Of a stretch of DNA of 64,000 nucleotides, positions 54,584 through 64,000 are shown one piece after another. The notes beneath the pieces were generated by a model. It was not told where the DNA came from and ran no database searches. It saw only the letters and a list, made by a program, of their open reading frames with translations. Numbering within the stretch: the first letter of the stretch is position 1; every line of letters begins with the position of its first letter. This stretch comes from Bacteriovoracaceae bacterium (GTDB lineage: Bacteria > Bdellovibrionota > Bacteriovoracia > Bacteriovoracales > Bacteriovoracaceae), in assembly GCA_024711325.1 (NCBI GenBank), contig JANJTC010000005.1, forward strand, positions 310,001 to 374,000, given 5' to 3'. The translations under genes were made by a program, and so were the position numbers.

Positions 54584-56418
54584 TTCAAGTAGTAGGTCTT
54601 GAGAAAGGCTTTGCCACCCAGGTCCTTTTTCAGGATGTGACTTTTACTCTGGGCAAGGGCGAAAGAGTTGGTCTGGTGGGAAGAAATGGTACTGGGAAGA
54701 CGACACTTTTTAAAATCCTTTTAGGTGAGGAATTTCCCGATAAAGGTGAAGTGATCTTTCCAAAAAACTATCTTATTGGAACGTTAAAGCAGCATCTGAT
54801 TTTTACGAAACCCACTATCTTAGAAGAATGCATGACCGCTTTGCGAGGAGAGAACGCGGCTTTTGAGCAATATAAAGTGGAGAAGATGCTTTTAGGTCTG
54901 GGTTTTAAAACATCTGATTTTAACCGGCCACCTTCAGATTTCTCCGGCGGTTATCAGATTCGTTTAAACCTCGCCAAGGTTTTAATTGCAGAACCAGATT
55001 GTTTATTACTGGATGAACCTACCAACTATCTTGATATTGTTTCAATGCGATGGCTCTCAAAATTTTTACGGGAATTTAAAGGTGAAATGATCCTCATTAC
55101 CCATGACCGAGGATTCATGGATGAAGTGACGACCCATACCATGGGAATCTGGAGACAAAAACTGGTTAAGATTCCTGGTGGTTCTTCTAAATACTTTGAA
55201 CAGATTATTCTGGAAGAAGAAATTTATGAAAAGACACGTCAGAATACCGATCGTAAAAGAAAAGATCTGGAAGATTTCGTCAATCGCTTCAAGGCCAAGG
55301 CCAGTAAGGCCGCCCAGGCCCAGTCCCGGTTAAAACTTTTAGAAAAAATGCCGGAACTGGAAGCCTTAAGCATGATGGCCAATCTGGATTTTGAATTTAA
55401 TCATCAGGAGTGTCCTGGAAAAGTTTTGATGGAGGCCAGGGATATTTCTTTTGGTTATACGGAGCAGTCACTGATTGATCATCTGAGTTTTCCTATCCTG
55501 CGAGGTGATAAGATCGCTATCATAGGAAAAAATGGTAAAGGAAAATCCACTCTTTTAAATCTGTTGGCGGGAGAGCTTCAACCAACTTCCGGTGAAATTA
55601 ATAAGAATGTGAATCTTTTAATTGGTCACTTCGGTCAGACTAATATCAATCGACTAAGTCTTGAAAATACTATTGAGGAAGAAATTCTTTCGGTTAACCC
55701 CATGATGGGTGCACAACGGGCAAGATCCATTGCAGGGACGATGATGTTTTCCGGGGACCTGGGTAAGAAAAAGATTAAGGTCTTGTCCGGGGGAGAAAGG
55801 GCCCGGGTGCTTTTAGGTAAGCTACTCGCCAAGCCCAGTAACTTATTACTGCTGGATGAACCTACCAACCATCTGGATCAGGAGTCAGTTGAGTCATTGA
55901 CCCTGGAGTTACAAAATTATCCTGGGGCCGTTGTCATTGTGACTCACAGTGAATCCATGCTCCGTGAAGTGGCCCAGAAGCTTGTGGTGTTTCATCATGA
56001 CAAAGTTGAATTCCTTACTGAGACCTATGATGACTTCTTGAAAAAAATTGGTTGGGAAGAAGAAGAAGGGGCGACCACGTCGGTTAAAACTCAGGACAAA
56101 CCCAATCGTCAGGAAATCAAGAGACTTCGTTCTGAGATGATTATTGAAAGAGGCAGGGAACTTAATCCTCTTAAAAAGAAAATGGAATCTTTAGAAAAAG
56201 AAATCATGAAGCTTGAAGAAGAGCAGGAAAAACTTGAAGCTGCCTTAATTGATCTTGCCAGCAGTGGAGATTCTAAAAAAATTCAGGAAAACGCCCAACG
56301 ACTGGGATCAGTCCGAAAACGAGTTGACGATGCTTTCGAAGAGTTAACAGAAGTGACTCTTAATCATGACGAGATCTTTCAGAATTATGAAGGAAAACTA
56401 AGGGCCCTGGAAGTCTAG
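54580..56418 (+). CDS. ABC-F family ATPase
   Basis: 612 residues with two ATPase halves and no membrane helices: Walker A GRNGTGKT and GKNGKGKS, signatures FSGGYQ and LSGGER, and Walker B LLLDEPTNYLD and LLLDEPTNHLD. A C-terminal coiled coil of about 75 residues (LKKKMESLEKEIMKLEEEQEKL) is Uup/YheS-like and may bind DNA or RNA. ABC-F proteins act on the ribosome to relieve stalls or give antibiotic protection. The linker between the halves carries KASKAAQAQSRL, as is usual. It is convergent with the 56415 gene. Confidence 0.93.
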   Translation: MIQVVGLEKGFATQVLFQDVTFTLGKGERVGLVGRNGTGKTTLFKILLGEEFPDKGEVIFPKNYLIGTLKQHLIFTKPTILEECMTALRGENAAFEQYKVEKMLLGLGFKTSDFNRPPSDFSGGYQIRLNLAKVLIAEPDCLLLDEPTNYLDIVSMRWLSKFLREFKGEMILITHDRGFMDEVTTHTMGIWRQKLVKIPGGSSKYFEQIILEEEIYEKTRQNTDRKRKDLEDFVNRFKAKASKAAQAQSRLKLLEKMPELEALSMMANLDFEFNHQECPGKVLMEARDISFGYTEQSLIDHLSFPILRGDKIAIIGKNGKGKSTLLNLLAGELQPTSGEINKNVNLLIGHFGQTNINRLSLENTIEEEILSVNPMMGAQRARSIAGTMMFSGDLGKKKIKVLSGGERARVLLGKLLAKPSNLLLLDEPTNHLDQESVESLTLELQNYPGAVVIVTHSESMLREVAQKLVVFHHDKVEFLTETYDDFLKKIGWEEEEGATTSVKTQDKPNRQEIKRLRSEMIIERGRELNPLKKKMESLEKEIMKLEEEQEKLEAALIDLASSGDSKKIQENAQRLGSVRKRVDDAFEELTEVTLNHDEIFQNYEGKLRALEV

Positions 56419-57578
56419 TTTAATCCTTCTATATGAAAGGGATTAAAATCATTGGCCGCAAAATATAACCAGGCAGTCCCCGCTACAGAAGAGGCATTTG
56501 TGAAGTCGGGATTTGGTGTCGTGGTTGAATAAGCTATCCCACCATCTGACTTTTTCATTTTCTTAATACTCTTAAGATAATCCACCGAGCTTTTTCCCTG
56601 GCAGTGGAGAGCTTTCTTATTTATTTTAGTAATCTTACTCATGGCCAGGACCTGTCCCAGAGTTCCCTCTGACCAGACAAATTTTGATGAGGCCGGACGG
56701 CGAACAGGTTTAGAGTCCATAAAGCCATTTACTCCTTCATGCTTAACATAAAAGGCATCACAATTTAAATTCAAGGCTTCATCAGGTTTTATCTTTTGTA
56801 ATGTTTTATGATCCAGTGCCAATAGACTCCAGCTCTGATTATCCAGATAGAGTTCACTTTTATTGATCTGGCCGGTTTTGAAACTAGCGCCTGACCAGAA
56901 ATGAGATTGATTCTTATCCCACATCGCCAGAATGAATTTTTTTAGCTGCTGAATTTCTCCCAACCATTTTTTATGATTATTAATTTCGGCAAACTGCTGG
57001 AAGGCCGCATAGGCATCAAGATTATGTTCTAATGCCGCCACATCATTTTCTTTCCAGGCAGTGGAGGCCACATCAACCGGAGAAAAGCTAATGGCACGCG
57101 TTTGAACTCCATTGACTTTGAGGGGATGCATCTGCGACTCGAGATAACTAAGAATACGAAAGTTGAAGTTCAGAAACTCTTTGCTCTTAAACTTATGTTG
57201 ATAGTGAACGGCCGATAGAGCGACCCAGGCAATGGCCCCAGCAAATCTTTTATCACCTTCTTCAGGATAAGGTGATTTTCCGTTCAAGTAATAAGAAAAA
57301 TAGAGGGAGCCATCTTCTCGCTGTAAGGATTCAAGTCCAGTGAGAAGTTTTCGGGCCGTGATCTGATCATTATTTTTGGTAAAGGCTATGATTGCTAAGG
57401 CCTGATCATAAATATAACTTTGCGAGTGATTAGTGAAACTTTTGATAAGTGAGCCTCTGCCTTCCGGAAGAGAATGGAGTCGAGAATCCAGGTTTTTAAT
57501 CAGTTCGTGATCAGCTCCGGCCCAACTGGTAGTTAAGACACAAAACATTCCCACGAGAAATATTAATTTTCTCGACAT
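56415..57578 (-). CDS. secreted alpha/alpha-toroid-like protein
   Basis: 387 residues with a signal peptide (cleavage near SWAG). Repeating helix pairs with glycine/aromatic loops (DQALAIIAF, QREDGSLYFSYYLNG, AGAIAWVALSAV, SWSLLALD, SSVAGTAWLYFAAND) suggest an alpha/alpha barrel, as in six-hairpin glycosidases or terpenoid-cyclase-like toroids. No catalytic motif is certain; acidic residues in SEGTLGQ and the KSDGGIAYS segment are candidates. It may act on envelope or prey glycans, which is inference. Confidence 0.6.
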   Translation of the reverse strand: MSRKLIFLVGMFCVLTTSWAGADHELIKNLDSRLHSLPEGRGSLIKSFTNHSQSYIYDQALAIIAFTKNNDQITARKLLTGLESLQREDGSLYFSYYLNGKSPYPEEGDKRFAGAIAWVALSAVHYQHKFKSKEFLNFNFRILSYLESQMHPLKVNGVQTRAISFSPVDVASTAWKENDVAALEHNLDAYAAFQQFAEINNHKKWLGEIQQLKKFILAMWDKNQSHFWSGASFKTGQINKSELYLDNQSWSLLALDHKTLQKIKPDEALNLNCDAFYVKHEGVNGFMDSKPVRRPASSKFVWSEGTLGQVLAMSKITKINKKALHCQGKSSVDYLKSIKKMKKSDGGIAYSTTTPNPDFTNASSVAGTAWLYFAANDFNPFHIEGLN

Positions 57579-57669: not shown

Positions 57670-58500
57670 CTAATTTAGATGACTTAGGAGCTTTCGATAG
57701 TAGGGAGAATGGACTGCCAGAGTTTGCAGGTACTGGGCGATATCATTTTTTTGGGGGGCCGGCAGTTGTTCTAGAGGATAGATATGTTCTTCCGGGACAT
57801 ACCGGAAAGTGAAATTGATCCTGCGGGTTTGAAAGCCCTCGATCTGAGGACCGAGTTTTTCTTTTCTTTTATCTTCTACTCTTTGAACCCGATGGAAGGT
57901 TTTGGTCTTCCACTTATCTCCACCAAAAATCTGGAGAGATGAATCTTCTAACCATTGAGAGTAAACAATGTTTTCTTCTTTCAAAGTTGATTTGCCGTTC
58001 ACAAACTGGAAGAAGGCGCGATCACCTAAGGAGAGTGAGCCCACAGGCCCTGGTTCAAAATCTTTATGCTCTCCCACCCGGGCCCGATCGACCCATTTGT
58101 CTTCTTCAAATTTATTCCCGTAGAAATTAATAAGACAGGTGTTGAGTTTCCATTTCTCTGGAAAAAAACTTTTGGGAAAACGTCTTTTAGCAGTGAATTC
58201 TATCCGGTCGACTAGTTTTTGTAATAAAGGAGGATAGGGCTCGCCCTTAAGGCATCGATGTAGAATCCCTTTAGGTGGATGGTAATAATCCAGACAGGCA
58301 AATTGCCAGTTCCCTAACCAGTATACGGGTCTTAAGAGCGGACGCTGTTCATCACCTTGAGGTGGTGGATTATTCTCGGAAAAACGCATCTCCCACAAGG
58401 GATGCAAAGTCTCAAGCCACGCCAATAGTTCTGCCCGGTCTTTCCGATCAATAAAAGGAAACTGGTAATATAGGCCTGTGGGAGTCTGGTTATTCTTCAT
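57670..58500 (-). CDS. AlkB-like 2-oxoglutarate/Fe(II) dioxygenase
   Basis: 276 residues, longer than E. coli AlkB by an N-terminal extension of about 60 residues. The AlkB core is present: NFYGNKFEEDKWVDRARVGEH, iron ligands His145 and Asp147 (EHKDFEP) and His203 (FHRVQRV), and the 2-oxoglutarate signature R-x-N-x-T-x-R (Arg227, Asn229, Thr231, Arg233) in RINFTFRYVP. It oxidatively removes alkyl lesions from nucleic acid bases or modifies RNA or protein; the substrate is unassigned. It is divergent from the GNAT-luxE-luxC operon with 65 bases between the starts. Confidence 0.88.
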   Translation of the reverse strand: MKNNQTPTGLYYQFPFIDRKDRAELLAWLETLHPLWEMRFSENNPPPQGDEQRPLLRPVYWLGNWQFACLDYYHPPKGILHRCLKGEPYPPLLQKLVDRIEFTAKRRFPKSFFPEKWKLNTCLINFYGNKFEEDKWVDRARVGEHKDFEPGPVGSLSLGDRAFFQFVNGKSTLKEENIVYSQWLEDSSLQIFGGDKWKTKTFHRVQRVEDKRKEKLGPQIEGFQTRRINFTFRYVPEEHIYPLEQLPAPQKNDIAQYLQTLAVHSPYYRKLLSHLN

Positions 58501-58565: not shown

Positions 58566-59741
58566 ATGCTTGTGCTTAATCCGCAGAATGGTAGTCTCAA
58601 GCCCATGAAAGTACAATTGGCCACTGAGGAAGATGTTTTCCAGATTTCTCAGCTCTATTTTGATGTGTATCAGGGAACTTATCCCGATCCTTTGATGAAG
58701 GATTTTTTTCTCATTCGGGAATTTATTAAATCGGAAGCGGGCTTCTGGTTTATCACTAAAAATGAAAAGCAAGAGGTCGTGGCCTCGGTTCTTGCGGCCT
58801 ACGATAAAGAAAATTTAATTGCCAAGGCCTTTGGTGCAGTCGTGAGAAACGAGTGCCGGGGTCATGGTGTCATGGAAGAGCTTCTTTCTTTTGGGATTAA
58901 TTTTCTGAGAGAGAAAACTCAAGGTGTGGATGTTATTTACTCCACCACTAGAACGGTTAATGAGGCCGCTCAAACACTAACGGAAAAATTAGGATTTAAA
59001 AAATTGGGTATCTTCCCCAATGCCCACCGAACCAATGATTATGAGACACATTGTCTCACGGCGATTGTTTATCCTTCGGCCCTGGCAAAAAGGCATACGA
59101 ACTATAAAATTCATCATGAACTGGCCTCTCTGTATAATGTTGTCCAAAACGAAGTCGGTTTGGATCCTTTGGAGTCGATTATTCCAGAAAAGCCTTCTAA
59201 GGTGTTGTTGCCACCGGGAGAGCTTGAGGTGGTCAAATCACCGAAGTTTGTCACTTATCGTTACAATCATTTGAAGGCTGATAAAAAATTGGAATTTGAG
59301 TTTTTTCCATTTCATCAGCCTAATTTGATGATTATCTCACCTGATCAATCGATTGAACTCTTTTGTCATCTCTCTGCGGTCGACGGTTATTGTGTCATCG
59401 TGGGTGGTAAAATGCCTCCTAATCAGGATTTTACGGAACTCTTTTTAAGCGCTAATAAATTATTAAGAGATGCGGGAGCACGTTATATCGAGGTCATTGT
59501 AAGGTCAGATCGTCCCAAAATTCTGGAGAGTGTTCTCCGGGCGAAGTTCATTCCTTGTGGCCTCTTTCCCTCTTTCCAACAAATTGGAGATAAACGTTAT
59601 GACTTTGCAGTCTTTAGCCGCTCCTTTGAAATCTTTGATTTTCAGAATGTGAAACTCAAAGGCATGAATCAGGTTTATCTGGAAGAATACTTTAAGGCCT
59701 GGAAGCGCATGTCTTTAAATCCTAAACTACTAAAAGTATGA
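58566..59741 (+). CDS. GNAT acetyltransferase with second C-terminal domain
   Basis: 391 residues; AAGGTAGAGGT precedes the ATG at 58566, and an ATG at 58605 is a possible later start. The first about 165 residues are a GNAT with motif A AFGAVVRNECRGHGVMEELLSFG. The second half (about 225-390) has a GNAT-like beta layout (FTELFLSANKLLRDAGARYIEVIV, RAKFIPCGLFPSF), so it may be a duplicated or pseudo-GNAT domain. It is first in a three-gene operon and overlaps the LuxE-like gene by 4 bases. It probably N- or O-acylates a small molecule made by the rest of the operon. Confidence 0.75.
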   Translation: MLVLNPQNGSLKPMKVQLATEEDVFQISQLYFDVYQGTYPDPLMKDFFLIREFIKSEAGFWFITKNEKQEVVASVLAAYDKENLIAKAFGAVVRNECRGHGVMEELLSFGINFLREKTQGVDVIYSTTRTVNEAAQTLTEKLGFKKLGIFPNAHRTNDYETHCLTAIVYPSALAKRHTNYKIHHELASLYNVVQNEVGLDPLESIIPEKPSKVLLPPGELEVVKSPKFVTYRYNHLKADKKLEFEFFPFHQPNLMIISPDQSIELFCHLSAVDGYCVIVGGKMPPNQDFTELFLSANKLLRDAGARYIEVIVRSDRPKILESVLRAKFIPCGLFPSFQQIGDKRYDFAVFSRSFEIFDFQNVKLKGMNQVYLEEYFKAWKRMSLNPKLLKV

Positions 59742-60847
59742 ATACCCACTTCACTCAGGATTTATTAAACTCCGATCCCTTCGACAAATCTTTGGAAGCA
59801 AAAGAACTATTTCTTAAGAGCTTCAAAGAGAATGCTCTTCATCATTATAAAAAACATGAGTTCACTCGAAAGCTTTGGAATAAGCTAGGCTTTCACCCTG
59901 ATCAGTTGTTAACGGAAGATGATCTATCTTTAGTGCCTGGAACCATGGTTCACTTGTTTAAAGAGCATGAATTCTGCTCCGTCCCCAGGGAAGAGCTGGT
60001 GCTGACCTTGACCAGCTCAGGCACGGGCGGCCAAAAGTCCCGGCAGTTTTTGGATCAAAAAAGCCTGGATAATGTGAAGAAGCTTGCTCTGGCAATTCAT
60101 CAATCTCTGGGAATGGCGAGTCCTAAAGAATATAACTACCTGTGTTTTACTTATGATCCTGCGGTCGCCAATGATTTAGGAACTGCCTTTACCGATGAGC
60201 TTTTGACCAATTTTACAGGAAAAAAAGAAGTCTATTATGCCATTCAGTTTGATCCTAAGCTGAATGATTTTGTTTTAAATGATGAAGGGGTGGTGGAGAC
60301 CTTAAAACGTTTTGCCGCATCCGGAATTCCTACCCGAATACTGGGATTTCCCGCTCTTCTGTATGAGGTGATTGAAAAACATCAAATCGAGTTAAAGCTG
60401 GGAGATGATTCCTGGCTTCAAACCGGTGGCGGATGGAAAGGTAAGGCCGATAAAGAAATTCCTAAAAAAGAATTCAGACAGTTTATTTTTAAACATTTGG
60501 GAATTCCTGAGAAAAATCAAAGAGATCTTTTTGGAATGGTTGAACACGGTATCCCTTACGTCGACTGCGATAAAGGAAACCTGCATATTCCAAATTATGC
60601 GCGGGTTTATATCCGGTCACCTTTTGATTTATCTTTGAGACCTAAAGGAGAGCGCGGTCTGCTTCATTTTTTATGCTCGTATAATTTCAGCTATCCCGCT
60701 CCGAGTTTACTCACAACAGATTATGGAAGAATAGGTGAATGTGATTGTGGGCTTGGAACTGACATCCTCATTCTGGAAGGCCGGGCGGGAGTTTCCAAGC
60801 ATAAGGGATGCGCTTTGAAGGCGCTTGAACTATTGGAGAAAAACTAA
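59738..60847 (+). CDS. LuxE-like acyl-protein synthetase / acyltransferase
   Basis: 369 residues, the size of LuxE. Acyl-adenylate region TSSGTGGQKS (Ser93-Gly98 and on) plus the LuxE/PaaK-family layout, and a C-terminal block with DYGRIGECDCG and GRAGVSKHKGCALKALELL. LuxE activates a fatty or other acid with ATP and passes it to a Cys of the reductase LuxC. It overlaps the GNAT gene by 4 bases and the LuxC-like gene by 1 base (TAATG), so the products are almost certainly made in fixed ratio. Confidence 0.8.
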   Translation: MNTHFTQDLLNSDPFDKSLEAKELFLKSFKENALHHYKKHEFTRKLWNKLGFHPDQLLTEDDLSLVPGTMVHLFKEHEFCSVPREELVLTLTSSGTGGQKSRQFLDQKSLDNVKKLALAIHQSLGMASPKEYNYLCFTYDPAVANDLGTAFTDELLTNFTGKKEVYYAIQFDPKLNDFVLNDEGVVETLKRFAASGIPTRILGFPALLYEVIEKHQIELKLGDDSWLQTGGGWKGKADKEIPKKEFRQFIFKHLGIPEKNQRDLFGMVEHGIPYVDCDKGNLHIPNYARVYIRSPFDLSLRPKGERGLLHFLCSYNFSYPAPSLLTTDYGRIGECDCGLGTDILILEGRAGVSKHKGCALKALELLEKN

Positions 60848-63246
60848 TGTACTGGTTTGGGAAAGATCTTTCAGTCAATTTTAACTGGCAGAATCCGGAA
60901 TTATGGAAAGATCTGACTTTCAAACGTCAGGCATTTTCTCGCACGAAGCTTGAAAGCATCATTGATTTATTAGATGCTTTTGGAAAGACTTCTTTTCTGG
61001 AGGCACTTCCGGAACTGATCAAGGAATCTGGATTCTCAGAAGTTGAGACCCGTAAAACTCTCGCTCTCTTGCCCGGACTTCTTAAAAAAGAGAATTTGGA
61101 AAAAAGAGTTAAGGCCGAATTTATTCACCCGGAAGTTTTGGACCAATTCACCAAACTTCCCCATGCCCTGGCCAAAACCCGTGCCGTTCCTCAGGGGATT
61201 ATCCTCCACGTGACGGCAGGAAATGTTTTTTTAAGCTGCATTGATTCTCTGATCATGGGTTTTTTAACCAAGAATCTTTCTGTGGTTAAAGTGAGTAGTC
61301 AGAATAAATTCTTTCCCACTTTCTTCGCTGAAAAATTAAAGGCTTTTGATAAGAATAAAATTTTATCAGATAAATTTGCCATTCTTCACTGGAAAGGTGG
61401 AGATCTTCAGGCAGAAACTTTTATTAAATCCAAAGTCCATTCGATCATCGCCTGGGGTGGAGAAGAGATGATCTCTTCTTATAAAAAGGATTTACCTTCA
61501 CATATCAAGTTTTTGGATTTTGGCCCAAAGATTTCTCTGCAAGTGATTTCGCAAGAAGGACTTCTCAATAAGAATTTAAGAAAAGTCGCTCAAAAGATTG
61601 TTTCAGATATTGTTCCTTGGGATCAGTCGGCCTGCGCTTCTCCTCAGAATCTCTATTTGCAAGAAGGAATTAACGAGAGTGAATTATTGCAGGAATTGGA
61701 AAAAGCTTTTCAGGAAGCTCCCATACGTGGTGACATTTCTGAAGATGAGGCGACAGAGATTCTTAAAGAAAAATATCGGGGTTATTATTCAGAACTAATG
61801 GAAGGCGGTAGTGTGGCCTCGGGTTCTGAGTTTCTGCTGCATTTGGAGACTAATAAACTCTTAAAACCGTCTCCGCTTCATCGTTCGCTTATTATTAAAC
61901 GTTACAATGACCTGACTGAACTTTACTCTGTCTTAGAACCATTTTCATACTATCTCCAATCTTGTTCTTATCTTCTTGGAGATAATGAACGGGAAACTTA
62001 TCTTGAGTACCTCGCTATGACAGGTCTCAAACGGTTTGCACCTCTGGGTACCATTACCTGGGGCATGGAAGGAGCACCTCATGACGGGCGTTTTGTTTTA
62101 AGAGAATTAGTTCATTTTATAGGAGATGAAAGAAGAATCCAGGACTATGGAGAAAAAATTCAGACTGTTACTAATTCAACCATTTTGAGGTCGCACTTTG
62201 AAAATACTCCTCACCCCAGAGGATATATCTTCTCTTCTGGAGGAACCACCGGAGAGCCAAAGTTTCTACACTTCAGTTATGAAGAATTCGATTATATGAG
62301 TGATATGCTGGCAGAAAATTTCATCCGTCATGGGGTTCGTCCCGGGATGACAGTGGCCAATCTGTTTGTTGCCGGAAATCTCTGGTCTTCTTTTTTATGT
62401 GTAGAAAAGGCATTGGAAAAAGTTGGTGCGATTCAGTTACCCATAGGAGGAATTTGCTCCAGTGACAATGTCCTGCTTTATCTGAAGAAATTCAAACCTC
62501 AAGTAATCATGGGCATTCCTTCAATGCTTGTGATGAACGCAGAGTACATGGAGACTAGTGGCGAAAAGCTGGAAATCCCAATGGTCTTTTATGCCGGAGA
62601 GGCACTTTCTGAAATTCGCCGGGATTATCTGGAAAATGTTTGGGGAACAAAAGTCTTTGCTTCTGCCGGTTACGCTTCCGTTGATGCCGGAGTGATTGGT
62701 TATCAGTGTCCCTCTTGCGGACCGGGTGAACATCACGTCTTCAGTGATTTAATAGAATTGAATATTCTGGAAGATGAGGCCGTTGTTACCAGTTTGGCCC
62801 GTGAGAGTATGGGGGTTAAAAACTATCGCACAGGTGACAGGATTGAATGGATCGAAAAATGTCAGTGCGGAAGTGAAGATAAGCGCTTCAAGCTTTTAGG
62901 AAGAATCGATAATGTGATTCAAATCTGGTCCTGTCGTTTACTCACCAGTGATGTTGAATCCGCCATGAATGACAAAGGTATCCTGACTTTTCAATTAACT
63001 ATTACCGAGGCCCGTGAGGCCAATTTAGTCCGTGAAAAGCTCCAGATTACTTATGAGAAACCTCATTCCGAAGTTGATGTCGAAATGCTCCTGATTGATA
63101 TCTATCAGCGGTCTCGTGACCTCAAAGACACCCTTAAATTTCAAGAGTTTAAGAAAGATGTGTTAATCAAAGCGGTGGCCTCTGGGGAAATTCCTCGAAA
63201 TCCCAGAACTGGAAAAATAGGGTTGGTAGTCGATCAACGGCGCTAG
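60847..63246 (+). CDS. LuxC acyl-CoA/acyl-protein reductase fused to PaaK-like adenylating domain
   Basis: 799 residues. Residues about 1-400 fit LuxC (aldehyde-dehydrogenase fold) with HVTAGNVFLSCIDSL, AWGGEEMI and the probable catalytic Cys263 in DQSACASPQ. Residues about 440-799 are an AMP-binding PaaK/LuxE-like domain: SSGGTTGEPK (463-472), YAGEALS, SVDAG and YRTGDR (660-665). A zinc-like set is also present, Cys621/624 (CPSC) and Cys672/674 (CQC). The fusion could activate an acid and reduce it to an aldehyde with NADPH in one protein. LuxC proteins elsewhere make the aldehyde for luciferase, but no luxAB gene is present here. The substrate is unknown. Confidence 0.82.
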   Translation: MYWFGKDLSVNFNWQNPELWKDLTFKRQAFSRTKLESIIDLLDAFGKTSFLEALPELIKESGFSEVETRKTLALLPGLLKKENLEKRVKAEFIHPEVLDQFTKLPHALAKTRAVPQGIILHVTAGNVFLSCIDSLIMGFLTKNLSVVKVSSQNKFFPTFFAEKLKAFDKNKILSDKFAILHWKGGDLQAETFIKSKVHSIIAWGGEEMISSYKKDLPSHIKFLDFGPKISLQVISQEGLLNKNLRKVAQKIVSDIVPWDQSACASPQNLYLQEGINESELLQELEKAFQEAPIRGDISEDEATEILKEKYRGYYSELMEGGSVASGSEFLLHLETNKLLKPSPLHRSLIIKRYNDLTELYSVLEPFSYYLQSCSYLLGDNERETYLEYLAMTGLKRFAPLGTITWGMEGAPHDGRFVLRELVHFIGDERRIQDYGEKIQTVTNSTILRSHFENTPHPRGYIFSSGGTTGEPKFLHFSYEEFDYMSDMLAENFIRHGVRPGMTVANLFVAGNLWSSFLCVEKALEKVGAIQLPIGGICSSDNVLLYLKKFKPQVIMGIPSMLVMNAEYMETSGEKLEIPMVFYAGEALSEIRRDYLENVWGTKVFASAGYASVDAGVIGYQCPSCGPGEHHVFSDLIELNILEDEAVVTSLARESMGVKNYRTGDRIEWIEKCQCGSEDKRFKLLGRIDNVIQIWSCRLLTSDVESAMNDKGILTFQLTITEAREANLVREKLQITYEKPHSEVDVEMLLIDIYQRSRDLKDTLKFQEFKKDVLIKAVASGEIPRNPRTGKIGLVVDQRR

Positions 63247-63331
63247 CCCTGTAACCTTTTTATGGGTCAACATTAAATCTGTTGGTAAATAACGTTCCGT
63301 GTTATTTCTTCTCCACTATCCAGGAGAATAT

Positions 63332-64000
63332 ATGAAAACCCTAGCAGTTCTATCTCTCGCCCTAACCATGTCAACCGCTTTTGCGGCCCAGGAGTTTGGG
63401 GGAATCTCATTTCATTCATCCGTTCCTCAGGAGCAGGTAGATGCACTAAAAGTTGATATTAGTTATCTTTATCAAAATCCGGTCACAAAGTCTGATCCCG
63501 AATTTCTGGCCATGAGTGGTCTGCCAGTTGCTGATGGAGCTAATATGCACAACTGGCTGGTGAATCGAGTTAAACACATTATTGGTGAGGGCTTCGAACT
63601 AAATGAAGAAAACATCGCTGTTTGGCTATTCCATAGCTTCCCTAAAACACCGCTACCTGATGCTTTCAAAGAAGTATCTGGAAAAGAAGAAGTTACCACG
63701 ATCATGTCCAATATTGGGACGGCCTTATATCTGGTTGGGAAAAAAGAAGATCTTTTATTCGGTCTTAAGCTCGATGGTGACAAAGTTTACGCTAAATCAT
63801 CACGTGTAGGAATTCTGCAAGTAGGTAAGGGTCTCTTTCTGGAAAGATTCCGTTTAAATAAAGATCTGAATGCTCCTGCAAACTCAGTCTCAAGATTGGG
63901 AACACTTTTCCATGAGGCCCGTCATAGTGATGGTAATAGCGCTCATACAGGATTCACTCATGATATTTGTCCATCAGGTCATGCTTATGAAGGTCACGCT
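63332..64000 (+). CDS. secreted HExxH-motif putative metallopeptidase (3' partial)
   Basis: At least 223 residues, running off the right edge; AGGAG lies 5 bases before the ATG at 63332. A signal peptide (MSTAFAAQ region) indicates export. The mature part has the zinc motif H-E-A-R-H (in LGTLFHEARHSDGN), followed by HTGFTHDICPSGH with more possible ligands. The region before it is alpha/beta with no known domain that I can name. Proteases of this kind are plausible in a predator, but the substrate and the third ligand cannot be seen in the truncated gene. Confidence 0.7.
   Translation, partial: MKTLAVLSLALTMSTAFAAQEFGGISFHSSVPQEQVDALKVDISYLYQNPVTKSDPEFLAMSGLPVADGANMHNWLVNRVKHIIGEGFELNEENIAVWLFHSFPKTPLPDAFKEVSGKEEVTTIMSNIGTALYLVGKKEDLLFGLKLDGDKVYAKSSRVGILQVGKGLFLERFRLNKDLNAPANSVSRLGTLFHEARHSDGNSAHTGFTHDICPSGHAYEGHA

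Follow-up and report, generated by a model that had tools for sequence, protein, structure and literature searches.

We identified in a 64,000-nucleotide window of a Bacteriovoracaceae genome (GenBank assembly GCA_024711325.1, contig JANJTC010000005.1, forward-strand positions 310,001 to 374,000; hereafter the window) a three-gene operon encoding a GNAT-type acyltransferase, a LuxE-like acyl-protein synthetase and a LuxC reductase fused to a PaaK-like adenylating domain (Table 1). Its families and retained LuxE and LuxC residues support the proposal, made in a preliminary description of the sequence, that it carries out Lux-type reduction of an acid to an aldehyde without luciferase. Our leading interpretation, to which we give slightly less than an even chance, is that the three proteins assemble an N-acylated amino acid or short peptide and reduce it to a leupeptin-like peptide aldehyde, with neither a nonribosomal peptide synthetase (NRPS) nor a ribosomal precursor. 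What we observed is the gene order, the protein families, the catalytic residues and the conservation of the operon as a unit; from these we infer the substrates, the order of the steps, the product and its role as a protease inhibitor.

We propose that the GNAT would N-acylate the amine of a first amino acid and that the PaaK domain would adenylate the acylated acid and couple it to a second amine. LuxE, whose proposed role is the activation of the final carboxylate, would adenylate the coupled product and hold it as a thioester on Cys358. Cys263 of LuxC would receive the acyl group for reduction by NAD(P)H to the aldehyde. A second PaaK site, as in some relatives, could add one more bond. 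The preliminary description had tentatively suggested an aryl or fatty substrate, which is possible, but an amino-acid or peptide acid would seem to fit better.

Table 1. Features of the operon, in window positions.
Feature	Position	Strand	Evidence and remarks
GNAT gene	58566..59741	+	391 aa; Pfam Acetyltransf_1 1.7e-9; start uncertain, 58566 or 58605
LuxE-like acyl-protein synthetase gene	59738..60847	+	369 aa; Pfam LuxE 3.1e-34; 7xc6_E 1.7e-20
LuxE Cys358 (KHKGCA), predicted acyl-thioester site	60809..60811	+	aligned with KGCS of 7xc6_E
LuxC-PaaK fusion gene	60847..63246	+	799 aa; Pfam LuxC, NCBIfam PaaK; AlphaFold, Foldseek 7xc6_A and PaaK structures
LuxC reductase domain	60943..62115	+	aa 33-423; Pfam LuxC 9.2e-63
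Catalytic Cys263 of LuxC	61633..61635	+	invariant, 47/47 and 45/45
PaaK-like adenylating domain	62212..63240	+	aa 456-798; profile match, NCBIfam PaaK 7.9e-22
ATP-binding loop SSGGTTGEPKF	62233..62265	+	loop lysine in 17/17 of the window's branch
Lys790, C-terminal catalytic lysine	63214..63216	+	17/17 of the window's branch; invariant in fusion alignments

Catalytic residues of the Lux-type reductase

The open reading frame (ORF) coordinates confirmed that the three genes (58566-63246, all on the forward strand) overlap by 4 and 1 bases: the GNAT and LuxE genes share ATGA, and the LuxE and fusion genes share the middle base of TAATG. The motifs TSSGTGG, SSGGTTGEPK and YRTGDR were present exactly as first quoted. 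All three genes are under purifying selection, because their ratios of nonsynonymous to synonymous substitution against the related locus L038 (fusion 94% identical) were 0.026 for the GNAT, 0.054 for LuxE and 0.085 for the fusion.

Cys263 of the fusion aligned with the cysteine of the luminous LuxC 7xc6_A (DQSACASPQ versus DQQACFSTQ) and was invariant, as was Lys790, both in the 45 aligned fusions and in the 47 rows obtained by adding one Salmonella and one Streptomyces sequence. Alignment and invariance alike place Cys263 at the catalytic position; a mismatch there would have counted against the preliminary description. An AlphaFold model of the fusion from 45 sequences (pLDDT 90.1, pTM 0.82) matched 7xc6_A in Foldseek (target-normalised TM 0.74) as well as PaaK-type ligases. 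LuxE retained its ATP loop, and the cysteine and alanine of its C-terminal motif were present in at least 95% of 74 family members; near-duplicate same-genus loci (L034, L037-L041) were left out of these motif counts and of the neighbor counts. A published study gives Cys362 as the catalytic cysteine of LuxE (PMC12655506).

The operon thus has in common with the luminous LuxC-LuxE pair (7xc6) both active-site cysteine positions and the LuxC fold. It differs in its fusion of LuxC to PaaK, in the presence of a GNAT, in scores below the equivalog cut-offs and in the lack of luxAB in the genome. A genome-wide search returned one luciferase-like protein, a member of the MsnO8 family that was the single PF00296 match (C1:1509680), and no NRPS Condensation domain, in an assembly of 3.55 Mb and 7 contigs that is 93% complete; the earlier remark that no luxAB or NRPS gene lies beside the operon holds, for luxAB and for Condensation domains, across this assembly. 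The same genome contains one LuxE; searched with the fusion, it gave one full-length match and a weak one spanning 85 residues.

Homology of LuxC and LuxE to the luminous fatty-acid reductase is what would argue for a fatty aldehyde or alcohol destined for a lipid, wax or surface molecule. The chemistry would then stay near that of the luminous systems, and the GNAT would form an N-acyl lipid. We regard such a product as distinctly unlikely, however, given that LuxE and LuxC scored far under the long-chain equivalog cut-offs (82.8 versus 550 and 121.8 versus 750 bits, respectively), that no gene for an acyl carrier protein or LuxD was noticed among the window's neighbors (no model search was made for them) and that related clusters carry a transporter.

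The second adenylating domain and the GNAT

The C-terminal half of the fusion matched the NCBIfam PaaK models over residues 461-798 (2.2e-23 and 7.9e-22, both below the cut-offs), and the fusion scored 17.1 bits with Pfam AMP-binding, below the cut-off of 29.9. To count adenylating residues, we sorted 125 PaaK domains by branch, with three domains of L089 and L130 set aside and six domains labeled F3 (L029, L084, L087, L088, L094 and L116; fused, with the free PaaK cut off, too short or outside the stretch) counted with the four-part groups, that is, loci with a further PaaK. The loop lysine and the C-terminal lysine were both present in 17/17 domains of the window's branch, in agreement with the initial proposal of a second adenylating domain; on this basis we rejected a dead PaaK half for the window's fusion. 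Fused PaaK domains of the main four-part branch had the C-terminal lysine in 44/44 cases but lacked the loop lysine in 22 of the 44, leaving it in 22/44. The loop lysine was found in 10/11 fused domains of a second branch and in all free-standing PaaK proteins (42/42 and 8/8). By these counts the window's fusion appears to have a complete second adenylating site, and many four-part relatives may depend on their free PaaK instead.

The PaaK-type matches of the fusion, by sequence and by fold, include NatL2, AjiA1 and ClxA, which we take to be amide- or ester-forming ligases of benzoxazole-type pathways; we count them in favor of a peptide aldehyde. The operon shares with these ligases and with PaaK itself the fold and the adenylating residues, but its PaaK domain is fused behind LuxC and the profile match starts only ~80 positions into the PaaK models. 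The same kinship raises the alternative of an aryl carboxylic acid reductase resembling GriC/GriD of grixazone, in which PaaK and LuxE would activate an aromatic acid, LuxC would reduce it and the GNAT would acylate an amino group. PaaK models are indeed the best NCBIfam matches of that half, and ClxA, a neighbor in sequence and fold, was solved with 3-amino-4-hydroxybenzoate. Furthermore, GriC/GriD provide a precedent from a metabolite pathway for two proteins that reduce an acid at the expense of ATP, and are described as adenylating and reducing 3,4-AHBA (3-amino-4-hydroxybenzoic acid; PMC10179220), although they are likened to the operon by description and not by sequence. We nonetheless consider an aryl product unlikely: the NCBIfam phenylacetate-CoA ligase equivalog scored 77.4 bits, below its cut-off of 646.3, and the two PaaK sites plus LuxE found in 37/75 loci of the phylum go beyond the need of one acid. 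Single-chain carboxylic acid reductases also join adenylation and reduction in one chain, as the fusion does, but here the reductase comes first and the carboxyl_red model scored 9.8 bits against a cut-off of 1300. No carrier domain matched in Pfam/NCBIfam scans of the operon proteins.

The start of the GNAT gene is uncertain because its same-genus homologues begin at differing places: several, among them those of L028, L033-L036 and L042, start at an ATG corresponding to 58605 (377-379 aa), and those of L031 and L038 start near the earlier position, on the 58566 side. An AlphaFold model (54 sequences, pLDDT 92.4) backs the two-domain architecture first described, for the second half appears by eye to repeat the GNAT order of strands and helices. 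The best 50 Foldseek matches listed (RimJ, ArsN, PAT, SpeG and others) aligned over 156-173 columns with target-normalised TM of 0.69-0.81, and the presence among them of the amino-acid acetylases ArsN and PAT speaks for a peptide aldehyde. Acyl transfer by this protein, suggested previously, is consistent with the family, and family membership is its sole basis.

Conservation of the operon in the phylum

In a first set of 58 genomes, 29 matched at 1e-10, the source genome included. Matches came from 23 of the 25 other same-genus genomes (three of them contig-end fragments, in G006, G013 and G022), from 5/10 genomes of other genera of the family and from 0/22 outside it. The relatives named, at five loci, belong to metagenome-assembled genomes (MAGs) of Bacteriovoracaceae, to one MAG filed under Proteobacteria and to one filed as Bacteriovorax stolpii. 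When 368 genomes of the phylum were searched with the LuxC family model, 233 had a match at 0.001 and 208 had one above the cut-off, as compared to 8 of 14 control genomes (7 above the cut-off). The weak matches listed, mostly in frames of 450-530 aa, were taken for ordinary aldehyde dehydrogenases. Among the matches listed, in E-value order, 108 in 102 genomes reached ~1e-21 or better (the next being 9e-15), and 99 of these lay in frames of at least 670 aa, a length that is by itself no proof of fusion.

We scanned with home-made profiles 75 stretches of the phylum, which comprised the window and stretches chosen from the LuxC matches. The LuxC-PaaK fusion is the usual form among these loci (69/75) and not a local oddity. 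LuxC and PaaK were neighboring genes in two (L102 and L133), LuxE-LuxC pairs occurred without PaaK or GNAT in three (L131, L132 and L140) and one stretch (L030) had no LuxC; L030 and L029, small contigs of G020, may be contamination. A GNAT, LuxE, the fusion and a further PaaK occurred together in 37/75 stretches. The window's combination of GNAT, LuxE and fusion without further PaaK was found in 22, of which three are truncated where the stretch stops. Seven more had LuxE, the fusion and a further PaaK with no GNAT found, and another three loci were cut. The preliminary description had counted two adenylating sites. Their residues are present, yet the number does not hold for the relatives, which have up to three sites because 37/75 loci hold a further PaaK beside GNAT, LuxE and fusion.

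Two irregular loci were recorded. One MAG (G012) contains two diverged copies of the region (L040 and L041; fusions 65% and 63% identical to the window's), perhaps from a strain mixture. In the MAG filed as Bacteriovorax stolpii (G007, L042:8001-10397), the fusion gene is split into two ORFs by an in-frame TGA that may be a sequencing error.

No Pfam, NCBIfam or PADLOC model names the operon as a known pathway, an outcome that would have counted against the preliminary description. Nor did we find a description of a LuxC/LuxE/PaaK/GNAT operon in the literature, most subscription journals being outside our reach.

Plasmid-borne relatives and transporter genes

The gene set recurs as a unit, in differing orders, both within the phylum and on plasmids of Streptomyces; Salmonella plasmids carry a related form. 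A plasmid of Streptomyces sp. NBC_00158 has the order PaaK - MFS - GNAT - LuxE - LuxC-PaaK, where MFS is a major facilitator superfamily transporter, and megaplasmids of S. cattleyicolor and Streptomyces sp. BHT-5-2 carry PaaK, GNAT, LuxE and LuxC-PaaK. The order on a Salmonella enterica IncF plasmid is LuxE - LuxC-PaaK - PaaK - GNAT (L076:12560-18318). LuxE, LuxC-PaaK and PaaK are annotated on a second IncF plasmid (L077:10560-15437), and both plasmids are conjugative. Two further Salmonella plasmids matched only 44% of LuxE, and E. coli gave no match to the Salmonella LuxE/LuxC-PaaK DNA.

An exporter-type gene lies in or against some related clusters. Transporter genes of one BLAST group were in the cluster or at most 4 bases away in 21/80 loci, and 1.4 kb off in one more; the six tested by Pfam were all MFS, and we count this association in favor of a peptide aldehyde. 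A supposed transporter remnant 5' of the Salmonella genes was withdrawn, being a 121-aa ORF with no Pfam match. Eight loci (L106:9338-10798, L083:4312-5778, L089:9048-10505, L090, L113, L114, L030 and L116) carry a further protein, mostly of 478-489 aa, which on reading seems to have one or more GNAT-like halves and an N-terminal part resembling an RsbW-type ATPase domain. Pfam gave weak GNAT matches in one of two such proteins and none in the other.

Genomic context also bears on whether the operon modifies cell-surface glycans. The Aeromonas flagellar glycosylation islands would be a model, since an acyl carrier protein, an AMP synthetase, luxE and luxC are listed in them (PMC7874193). We consider this role very improbable: the operon occurs in changing neighborhoods, and no glycosyltransferase family was found among the seven flanking proteins tested, only two of which had any family above cut-off.

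A possible leupeptin-like product

Protease inhibitors such as the peptide aldehyde leupeptin (Ac-Leu-Leu-argininal) react through their aldehyde group. Leupeptin needs one N-acetylation, two couplings and one ATP- and NADPH-dependent reduction, a step count to be set against the four-part unit of one GNAT, two PaaK sites and LuxE/LuxC. The leupABCD cluster of Klebsiella michiganensis, Photorhabdus and Xenorhabdus has four genes and an adjacent transporter gene; in CAV1374 it lies at 315,353-321,183 (PMC8283571). By those coordinates, leupA start to cluster end measures 5,781 bp; the four genes in Salmonella span 5,759 bp. This agreement in length and gene count is suggestive only and is confined to the Salmonella relative; the window has three genes and one PaaK. 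The leup operon yields leupeptin and a derived pyrazinone (PMC11480411), and the accessible part of that report names no gene family for it (ligase, reductase, acetyltransferase or locus tag).

A relative linked to a ribosomally synthesized and post-translationally modified peptide (RiPP) also points to reduction of a peptide C-terminus, perhaps of arginine, by analogy. On plasmid NZ_CP109155.1 of Streptomyces europaeiscabiei (L141:8337-14725), a metallo-beta-lactamase-fold gene and a gene for a multinuclear non-heme iron oxidase-type maturase precede LuxE, LuxC and a 53-residue ORF with four copies of FPFR. Pfam places the maturase in the MbnB/TglH/ChrH family (7.6e-25, above cut-off), and it also matched NCBIfam BufB (1.1e-18, below cut-off). 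A nearby gene annotated as YcaO-like matched the SagD model (2e-16, below cut-off). The FPFR repeat is visible only in the protein, because a tandem-repeat search found no DNA array. The ORF is likely a RiPP whose C-terminal arginine would be reduced to a peptide argininal. LuxE and LuxC of this locus share 51% and 46% identity with their counterparts in the Streptomyces four-part cluster, and 32% and 26% with the window's proteins.

Several results weigh against a leupeptin-like product. No product is known for any member examined, and the window has three genes where leup has four. The published leupA primer had no match in the Salmonella stretch with up to 3 mismatches, the leupB-primer peptide picked no single place in the Salmonella proteins, and the first residues of leupA, MKIAIHN, may belong to another enzyme such as an ATP-grasp. 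The fold neighbors of the GNAT are broad (polyamines, protein N-termini), and the Salmonella protein of 294 aa that Pfam assigns to the same family resembles the two-domain GNATs only distantly: their profile matched just its first half (1.7e-6), and the best BLAST alignment had 31% identity over 135 aa. None of the 22 transporter-bearing loci belongs to the window's three-gene branch. Lastly, LuxE of the window shares just 32% identity with its RiPP-linked counterpart, and the window's LuxC scored 101 bits against the RiPP-linked LuxC, below the plasmid operons linked to a short-chain dehydrogenase/reductase (Azospirillum 145, Lactiplantibacillus 141 and Pantoea 128 bits).

We also entertain, as an improbable extension of the peptide aldehyde interpretation, that a minimal line of three proteins lets Bacteriovorax-type predators make N-acyl dipeptide aldehydes, that the count of PaaK sites would set how many peptide bonds are formed (one in the window, two in four-part relatives) and that the inhibitor would govern proteolysis during predation. 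If the peptide aldehyde interpretation is right, small clusters that make protease-inhibiting aldehydes without NRPS would form a large and little-studied set in predatory and environmental bacteria, and plasmids of Streptomyces and Salmonella would carry relatives of them. There would also be a rule linking PaaK count to peptide length and a reason for the persistence of luciferase-free LuxC/LuxE genes.

Origin of the three-gene form

The window belongs to a distinct three-gene branch. Its PaaK grouped with those of other three-gene loci and was separate from both kinds of PaaK, fused and free, in the four-part loci (near-duplicate same-genus loci L034 and L037-L042 were left out of this tree), and LuxE and LuxC of the three-gene loci each formed a clade with 17 leaves (support 0.984 and 0.991). 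Because the fused PaaK has its own branch and LuxE and LuxC form clades, we do not favor a four-part cluster that simply lost its second PaaK as the origin of the window's form. The midpoint-rooted GNAT tree weakens this clean split, as seven loci of another branch fall inside the three-gene group. In genus g5, locus L023 has the four-part form beside the same neighbors as in the window's genus (the AlkB-like gene, the 387-aa family and an ABC-F gene). Sharing of neighbors when the operon proteins are only 27-41% identical (ABC-F, 62%) suggests that one form may have replaced the other in place.

Neighboring genes

The operon diverges from a reverse-strand gene (57670-58500) for an AlkB-like 2-oxoglutarate-Fe(II) oxygenase, a relative of which was near the operon in 11 loci, three of them of genus g5 (four-part form). 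The next reverse-strand gene (56415-57578) encodes a 387-aa protein, probably secreted and with no Pfam match above cut-off, with relatives near the operon in 8 loci. PADLOC anti-phage defense models found no family for any of the three operon proteins at E 0.01, and viral_contigs gave no relative in a leupA-primer scan or two protein scans; we rejected a phage or defense link. On the other side (63299-64000, forward strand, running on as L037:8299-9438) is a gene for a 379-aa, probably secreted protein with the motif HEARHSDG, perhaps a zinc metallopeptidase, with no Pfam match. Some relatives also have ORFs of about this length 3' of the operon.

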